A stretch of 64,000 nucleotides of DNA from Ulva prolifera. Taxonomy: Eukaryota > Chlorophyta > Ulvophyceae > Ulvales > Ulvaceae. Shown in pieces: positions 24,134-26,956 of the stretch; within the stretch, counting starts at the first letter, position 1, and each line of letters opens with the position of its first letter. The translations under genes were made by a program, and so were the position numbers. The stretch covers positions 9,595,836-9,659,835 of the forward strand of contig CM041198.1 in the NCBI GenBank assembly GCA_023078555.1, written 5' to 3'. The notes under the pieces are model-generated. The model saw nothing but the letters and a program-made list of their open reading frames with translations. It searched no databases and was not told the DNA's origin.

Positions 24134-26956
24134 GTGACCCGCACTTGTGCTCGCCTCCACCTGCTCGTGGTTTTCCTCTTCACTATCGAGGCATGTACAT
24201 GTAGGAATTCTGTCGGAATGCTGCCCTGCAAGCATGCCGCAGGAGCAGGATCGGTATTCAGCTGGGACAACCCCGCATGCCGAGACTATCATGCTACAAA
24301 CTCGTACTTATCGTTGCGACAAGATCCAAAACGTCCTCCGGACTCCGCACGCTATCCATGGTTCGTCAACACGTCCAGTAACGATTTTCCAACGCGAGAT
24401 ACTGAGTTGCCAGCTGCGGGCCCTACACATCGTTCGCGCGATAGCGTAACACCGCAAGACGCAGTCGTCCGTTCAAATGATCGTGTAGCTACTTCCCGCG
24501 CGATGAGTCTTGATGGCCGGGAATGCGGGGCTCAGTGGCTGTCAGAGCTTGTCCCATCCGTAGAAGAGGTGACAAGGGCCCTGGGCAGACCTCCGGGACT
24601 TTGTGTCATTCACGTCGGCGAGCGGAGTGATTCACGGCTGTACGTTTCAAAAAAAGAGGAGGCTTGTAAGCAGGTGTGCGCATGATCATCATGCAATGAC
24701 ACCAGTGACTACGACTCTCAACACTTGCGCAATGCCACCCCATTTAACACGCGGACCACATACTGCCCTTGTGAACTTCCGCACCCGAACTGCAAATAAT
24801 TCAAATGTTGATTCAAGGCTCAATGGGACATATGCCTGTCCAAGATATTGATGAACAGGTCAGTCTCGTTGCATGTCACTGTTACCTGCTTTACACCTCC
24901 ATCATGACACTGCTAGCAGCCATCTGTCTTGTGCATGCATGCCATTGCATACATCTACAGCCCAGATGCTCATGCTCCGCTGCCCTTGAGAAACAACCCA
25001 AATATCTGCGTCATCTGCGCGTGCTTTCAAGATTGATGTTGTACAAGGAGCAAGAGATTGGATGAATTTGATATACGCTTTGATTGCAGATGAATATATC
25101 CTCAGCACTGAAACATCTACCTGCTTCCACGTCACAAGAACAGCTTCACGCTGCTATTGATGAGGCTTGTGCCAATGACGAGGTAGATGGAGTTTTGGTG
25201 CAGCTTCCACTGCCACCACATCTGAACGAGTTTGATGTTATGGAACGGCTGGACCCCCGAAAGGATGTGGATGGATTTCATCCTCTCAACATGGGCCGCA
25301 TGCTTGCAAGAAATGCGCCCCCGCGATTTGTTCCGGCTACTGCGCTGGGATGCATGCAGCTGTTGAAGATGTACAACATCTCAGTAACAGTACGCTGCAT
25401 GCAAGTGCTGTGCCATGGTCCAGTTGGCATCGTCTGGATTATGAGTTGCGGATCATGCCGTGCTCAAGTGTCACGTTCACACTTGCCCTTGGCCGGCATC
25501 AAGCCGAAGATGGGCACTTCTGTACATGACCTGCTGTGCATCCATTGCCGCCGTTTCTTTCATGTTATGTGGATGATTTTGTCTGCTGCTGCAGAAGAAG
25601 CATGTGGTGGTCGTCGGTGATTCCAACATTGTTGGCACCCCCTTGTCGGTACTGTTGAGGGATGCCGGAGCCGGCACGGTGACAGTGTGCCACCGCATTG
25701 CCTATACAAATATTTTTGAAGACCGCCTGGCCCATGCGAAAGTTCGGCAGCTGCGTTCGCATGCTCACGCCTGCCTGCCACGTCTTCCTGGGCCATATTC
25801 GCGAATGGGCGCCGCTCAAAGCACAGTCGACACTCAGAATGGCAGTGATTCAGTGAAGACACGGGAGGCAGAGTCAATGGTTCACATGCCTCAACGCCCT
25901 TGCTCACCGCCAGATGCAGCACGTGTGACTGTTGAGCAAAAACAAGATGCAACAACAGTAATCGTTGAGGTGTTGCTCTCCTTTCCTCTTTGATAGCACA
26001 AACTGGATGTGGTTTTTGCTTGCTAAAGGTTTGCTCAGTCGATGAGCATATCAGGTGCATGTCAGCTTGCATACGGCGTATATCCATAAGATTTTTGAAG
26101 GGGCATTTGATTGTAGGCCGGGCAATTTGCACACGCAGTACCCCGGACTGCCCAGTGTGGCCTGCGCAGTGGACACTAGCATCCTCATGTGCGTGATGCG
26201 TTGTAGGCGCTCGACCGCCCAGGACTGCTCAAGTCACTGACGTCTGTGTTCTGCGACCTTGACCTTAGTGTCAGGCATGCGGACGTGCAAACAAATGAAG
26301 ATGGCCGCCGTGTTAGAGATGTTTTTCACCTGACCGACATGAGTGGTGCTCCGGTGCGGGACGCGCGTAAGCTCAGGCGGCTATCTGCACTGGTCCGGGA
26401 GCATGTGGGGGGAGTAGTCATTGCAGAGCCAGGCACCTGGGATGATGGGCATCTGGCTGCTCTTACTCGCACTGCAGACGTGCTGGTTGTCGCTGTGGGC
26501 TACCCTGAGCTGGTGAAGTACGCTTCTGATTTGTGGCCTCCGAAGAACCTTCTAGTGGGGAAAGTGCCATCAAAGTTGCTCTGCTGCCCCTACTTGTCAC
26601 CATCTGATGATGTTTGCAGGGGTGACTGGGTCAAGGCTGGCGCAGTGGTGCTGGATGTAGGAATCAATGTTGTTCCAGTGGAGGCTGGCCAAACACGGCA
26701 ATCCATACGCAATCAGTCCAGCGCATCGGGCTCTGACGAACGCAGTGATCCTCCGAAAAAAATTTGTGGCAAACAGGAGGAACCTATCAAGTCAGGCGAC
26801 GGGCGCGTTGTAGGGGACGTTGCTTTCAAAGAGGTAGCGAAGCTGGCGTCTGCGATCACTCCTGTACCCGGTGGTGTTGGTCCCATGACAATCGCTGCCT
26901 TGATTCATAATGTTGTGTTTGCTGCACAGTATCGTGCAGGGCTGAAACAGTGGTGA
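24134..26956 (+). CDS. FolD-type methylene-THF dehydrogenase/cyclohydrolase with inserted ACT domain
   Basis: FolD interconverts 5,10-methylene-THF and 10-formyl-THF in one-carbon metabolism. Exons: ?-24673, 25090-25389, 25595-25969 and 26207-26956, with phase-0 junctions. Family motifs: PPGLCVIHVGERSDSRLYVSKK with the catalytic Tyr and Lys, [68 protein letters not shown], and the C-terminal TPVPGGVGPMTIAAL. Between TVTVCHR and [17 protein letters not shown], where FolD normally has only a short loop, about 180 residues are inserted. Their second half reads TTVIVE|ALDRPGLLKSL, VRHADVQT and RVRDVFHLTDMSG, the pattern of an ACT domain of the GlnD/ACR type. The nucleotide motif is GDSNIVG instead of the usual GRSxIVG. 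The start is uncertain: Met at 24134 gives a hydrophobic targeting-like leader, while a later Met near 24503 gives a cytosolic-length protein. A possible cryptic in-frame intron lies near 26505-26620. Confidence 0.85.

Follow-up and report, generated by a model that had tools for sequence, protein, structure and literature searches.

Does a regulatory ACT domain really lie inside the cofactor-binding half of a FolD-type folate enzyme, and if so, what might it do there? The question is raised by a gene on the plus strand of a 64,000-nucleotide stretch of Ulva prolifera DNA, here called the window, from a host assembly of 88.9 Mb in 44 contigs. Our predicted model, start codon included, places five exons at 24218-26956, separated by four GT-AG introns and encoding a 592-residue FolD product (the FolD-ACT protein) with no internal stop; an in-frame stop at 24125-24127 lies upstream of the ATG. 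An earlier, sequence-only reading had bounded the gene at 25595-26956, which captures exons 3-5 but overlooks exons 1 and 2. It also overlooked the intron at 26518-26619 within its last exon, the removal of which restores the join LVK/GDW and matches solved FolDs. The features are as follows:

24218-24673, plus strand: exon 1, with the first ATG at 24218, a 95-residue N-terminal extension and then the beginning of the FolD catalytic domain
25090-25389, plus strand: exon 2, FolD catalytic domain
25595-25969, plus strand: exon 3, opening portion of the Rossmann domain with GDSNIVG and TVTVCHR, then linker and first ACT strand
25697-25948, plus strand: linker of 84 residues (287-370), with no Pfam match and coding-like codon use
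25949-26437, plus strand: ACT segment of 84 residues (371-454), split by the intron at 25970-26206
26207-26517, plus strand: exon 4, the remaining ACT and then FolD sequence again
26518-26619, plus strand: GT-AG intron of 102 nt, in frame and stop-free
26620-26956, plus strand: exon 5, the end of FolD, including a 34-residue extra loop and ITPVPGGVGPMT; stop TGA

The 95-residue extension could be an organelle presequence. The extra loop of exon 5 is a polar stretch (residues 506-539; 26693-26794) between PVEAGQ and GDGRVVGDV that has no counterpart in E. coli FolD or in the second FolD of this genome, which lies on contig C5 (the C5 FolD). Elsewhere in the window, a downstream gene on the opposite strand (28853-29200) matches the Sin3a C-terminal domain (E 6e-10), and pieces of a Copia-type retroelement occupy 49851-53940 on the plus strand, with Pol_BBD and RVT_2 above cut-off and gag and zinc-knuckle matches below it.

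The interruption itself is plain in the sequence: as the sequence-only reading described, the FolD frame breaks off after TVTVCHR and later resumes, and the junction 25969/26207 is a phase-0 GT-AG splice between TTVIVE and ALDRPG. The Pfam scan of the spliced protein that the same reading had called for places ACT (PF01842) above its cut-off of 27, at 28.4 bits and residues 372-421, alongside THF_DHG_CYH (PF00763; 110.9 bits, cut-off 32.8, residues 98-213) and THF_DHG_CYH_C (PF02882; 171 bits, cut-off 27), the latter in two stretches of which the better spans residues 458-585. An insert of 168 residues (287-454), comprising the linker and the ACT segment, splits the Rossmann domain; it begins directly after CHR, where the query aligns with the HR of E. 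coli FolD; in this alignment the query departs at HRFT (286-288) and rejoins at ENADLL (465). The loop at this point comes after the second Rossmann strand and carries a residue in contact with the NADP 2'-phosphate. An ACT fold is well suited to insertion into a loop because its two ends are near each other. Pfam scan and FolD alignment agree in setting the ACT within the Rossmann domain at the cofactor-phosphate loop, as had been proposed, and we are highly confident that the architecture is real. A chance match to ACT is ruled out by the Pfam cut-off together with the E-values of the GlnD profiles given below. By eye, the start of the linker (YTNIFEDRLAHAKV, 25703-25744) bears a faint likeness to the helix found after CHS in other FolDs, as though this helix had been partly duplicated, with one copy on each side of the ACT.

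Evidence that the insert is translated comes from the exon join and from codon use. Exon 4 without the strand encoded by exon 3 scores 26.4-26.5 bits against ACT, marginally below the cut-off of 27, and addition of that strand lifts the ACT segment from 26.4 to 32.5 bits, which supports both the joining of exons 3 and 4 and the translation of the insert. Codon use in the linker (25694-25951) was best in frame 0 among the three frames and beat 1999 of 2000 shuffles; this lends weak support, since one intron appeared equally coding-like in one frame in the same test. A structure prediction made from 26207-26460, a piece of exon 4, gave an alpha-beta-beta-alpha model for the opening 84 codons of that exon; in fold comparison ACT chains tied with unrelated ferredoxin-like folds, so that the comparison does not set ACT apart from them.

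Judged by its profile matches, the inserted ACT is of the GlnD/ACR type. Eight NCBIfam models matched the ACT segment with E values up to 1; every one was a GlnD model and none a PurU model, which led us to reject a PurU-type ACT. The best GlnD model (E 3e-12) aligned residues 3-73 of the 84 with GlnD positions 853-921 of 940, that is, with the C-terminal ACT of GlnD. Against PDB sequences the segment gave weak matches only (best E 0.45), and the Pfam ACT match of the FolD-ACT protein spans profile positions 1-50 of 66. The DRPGLL motif of the insert retains the beta1-alpha1 glycine, which in the available text of PMC3173338 is described as near-invariant in ACT domains and located at the serine site of PGDH; the same text presents GlnD as a glutamine sensor, possibly through its ACT domains. 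Since the insert is GlnD-like, glutamine would be a better first guess for its ligand than the glycine or serine put forward in the sequence-only reading, which the eight GlnD matches displace as leading candidates. ACT domains bind small molecules, usually amino acids, and the feature of such binding seen in the insert is the loop glycine. The genome holds 11 ACT matches, one of which is the insert; by eye, others read as acetolactate synthase small subunit, 3-phosphoglycerate dehydrogenase, aspartate kinase, prephenate dehydratase and ACR types. The nearest to the insert lies on contig C6 at 4750625-4750843 (38% identity, E 3.5e-7), and the C6 protein has one GlnD-type ACT within a 272-codon open frame.

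Comparison with known systems helps to place the FolD-ACT protein. It resembles bifunctional FolDs, represented by E. coli FolD (1b0a) and the C5 FolD, in having both Pfam domains and the catalytic Tyr, Lys, Gln and Asp, and its core with the insert removed is 45-47% identical to them. It differs from an ordinary FolD by the 168-residue insertion after CHR, the N-terminal extension, the 34-residue loop before GDGRVVGDV and an Asp at the phosphate position. With the C-terminal ACT of GlnD and plant ACR proteins, the closest ACT type by profile, it has the DRPGLL loop in common; unlike GlnD, it has neither a nucleotidyltransferase nor an HD domain by Pfam, the host enzyme being FolD, and unlike ACR proteins it showed a single ACT in place of repeated ones. 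PurU, the usual ACT-bearing folate enzyme, likewise joins an ACT to a folate one-carbon enzyme, but its ACT is terminal and it has a formyltransferase domain; the latter (PF00551) was absent from the FolD-ACT protein in the Pfam scan.

Whether the enzyme itself still works can be approached through its residues. Eighty bacterial FolD loci were fetched, and four were dropped because the search motif was missing, leaving 76 rows. Catalytic Tyr, Lys, Gln and Asp, positions that we take to be the FolD active-site residues, occur in all 76 rows and all four are present in the FolD-ACT protein. A total of 73 columns are conserved in 90% or more of the bacterial rows; the ACT form keeps 66 of them and the C5 FolD 70, and of the seven that are changed in the ACT form, two are also changed in the C5 FolD. 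The two residues that presumably contact the cofactor phosphate are another matter. In the bacterial rows these are R+S (50), A+R (14), R+T (4), A+K (3), A+I (2), R+R (1), Q+S (1) and R+K (1). What we take to be the usual pairs, R+S/T or A+R/K, account for 71 of the 76, although such a pair is no strict criterion for the FolD family and its absence is no proof of lost activity. The FolD-ACT protein lacks a usual pair and has Asp+Arg, a combination found in none of the 76 rows; Asp alone at the phosphate position is equally missing from them. This change is compatible with a loss of function and with an altered function alike. Given that the catalytic residues are kept and the phosphate pair is Asp+Arg, the cofactor preference may have shifted, in either direction, and the protein may well be active as a dehydrogenase/cyclohydrolase.

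The ordinary C5 FolD lies at about 3840881-3841820 on the minus strand of its contig and is free of any insert. Other one-carbon genes of the assembly include FTHFS on contig C3 (11645307-11648726) and two formyltransferase-domain genes, by eye methionyl-tRNA formyltransferase and PurN. The PurU model, which matched 13 of 14 control genomes and exceeded its cut-off in eight, gave only below-cut-off pieces at these two genes. We describe PurU as not detected and not as absent, because each search covered one exon at a time and the assembly may have gaps. No match to rbcL (PF00016) was found in the assembly. Its rubisco small subunit, assembled manually from two exons, matches small chains of rubisco in the PDB (best E 1.7e-49), several of the best being from Chlamydomonas, which would fit a chlorophyte green alga.

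As to the origin of the gene, the C5 FolD and the ACT form have a phase-0 intron at the same position (NISVT/KKH and NIELS/GKR). A transfer of the gene from bacteria is not favoured, given this intron position in both FolDs of the genome. In a tree of 80 rows, in which the two algal proteins are the only eukaryotic FolDs and the bootstrap is unsettled, these two form a clade with one Chloroflexota MAG (support 97/90). In this clade the C5 FolD has the MAG as its partner (98/87) in place of the ACT form, so that the tree does not demonstrate a simple recent duplication. The ACT form sits on a branch of length 1.4, the median being 0.38. An algal-lineage duplication is favoured because of the intron position, the tree alone being insufficient, and the simplest history would be such a duplication followed by capture of the ACT and fast divergence.

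As far as the loci surveyed go, the insertion does not appear to be a known prokaryotic feature. The distance from DVDG to PGGVGP is 353 residues in the FolD-ACT protein versus 139-179 in 152 of the 160 loci taken for measurement (the best 80 of at least 592 prokaryote loci and the best 80 of 287 viral-collection loci), the other eight lacking one of the motifs; the viral-collection loci are redundant, as most have the same match length and identity. None of the 152 measurable prokaryotic and viral-collection loci carries an insertion of this kind, and a scan of viral contigs with the single protein gave no match. In cyanobacteria, by eye and among the matches listed, the top Rossmann-domain match was unbroken in 145 of 146 genomes; in the remaining one it was split into two parts, separated by 3 nt, and lacked its middle.

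A precedent for an ACT on a FolD chain does exist among flowering plants. In the available text of PMC6451014, two flax plastid MTHFD-MTHFC isoforms are reported to carry an additional ACT, which its authors read as a random insertion while speculating about regulation by serine or glycine. The likeness, ACT and FolD on a single chain, is one of description and leaves the position of the ACT aside; flax is a flowering plant, whereas the present host is an alga. The survey in that paper, as far as its available text goes, compares land plants with green algae (Chlamydomonas, Volvox, two Chlorella, Ulva, two Ostreococcus, Micromonas and Klebsormidium) and reports the extra ACT in the flax isoforms only. 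An ACT on a FolD chain, with the idea of serine/glycine control, is in this respect already partly in print, and the novelty claimed by the sequence-only reading for an ACT on FolD was over-stated. Among the matches listed, PMC6451014 is the only paper with an ACT on an MTHFD chain, and the available parts of PMC11064299, a survey of the mTHF family, do not mention ACT. An algal FolD-ACT, a position internal to the Rossmann domain and a GlnD-type ACT on FolD were not found in the literature, among the matches listed.

How, then, is the gene best read? We lean towards an ACT-regulated FolD, a reading that seems to us just on the probable side. The gene would encode a nuclear FolD paralogue, active as a dehydrogenase/cyclohydrolase, with a GlnD/ACR-type ACT in the cofactor-phosphate loop after the second Rossmann strand. 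ACT domains from two subunits would pair and bind a free amino acid, glutamine being the best guess, and the ligand-bound ACT would reposition the phosphate loop through the linker. The supply of 10-formyl-THF would thereby track nitrogen status, and the uninterrupted C5 FolD would supply unregulated activity. Allosteric control of FolD by the inserted ACT is what we infer from the sequence. A far more specific version, in which a glutamine-sensing ACT gates the FolD cofactor site and ties plastid-purine 10-formyl-THF to nitrogen status, with PurU lost, is doubtful.

It is also conceivable, if rather unlikely, that the insert is a tolerated, non-sensing module, which aids subunit association or is neutral, in an otherwise ordinary FolD. 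The flax authors' reading of their ACT as a random insertion (PMC6451014, available text) points this way, as does the limited reach of the Pfam match along the ACT profile. However, the DRPGLL loop and the similarity to GlnD extend over nearly the whole ACT despite the long branch, and retention of the ACT on such a branch speaks against a neutral module, since drift should have worn such a module down. The same long branch, the existence of an ordinary FolD on C5 and the Asp+Arg pair, foreign to bacterial rows dominated by R+S and A+R, would suit a neofunctionalised or inactive paralogue that has lost NADP use and become regulatory, a pseudo-enzyme or NAD-dependent. We consider this unlikely: the four catalytic residues and 66 of the 73 conserved columns are retained, as is the arginine of CHR, which is also present in E. 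coli FolD.

A last alternative concerns the gene model, for the linker and ACT might be removed from the main transcript by splicing. On paper, 38 in-frame, stop-free GT-AG combinations in the interval tested give ACT-free products, for example from an exon end at 25741 to an exon start at 26402 or 26429. None of the 38 restores a normal FolD loop, however: there is a GT at 25687 and then none until 25742, so that ACT-free splicing either loses CHR or retains at least 15 linker residues. The rise in the ACT score once exons 3 and 4 are joined argues in the same direction, and we judge such an artefact very unlikely.

To our knowledge, the coupling of one-carbon supply to nitrogen status in algae and plants is poorly understood. 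If the inserted ACT works as it does in other enzymes, amino-acid levels could steer one-carbon metabolism in this alga, and the ACT-regulated FolD, if true, would constitute a nitrogen-to-one-carbon switch inside a single protein chain. With the sensor built into the enzyme, this coupling would be directly testable with one recombinant protein. The FolD-ACT protein is also a case from nature of a domain inserted at a cofactor site.
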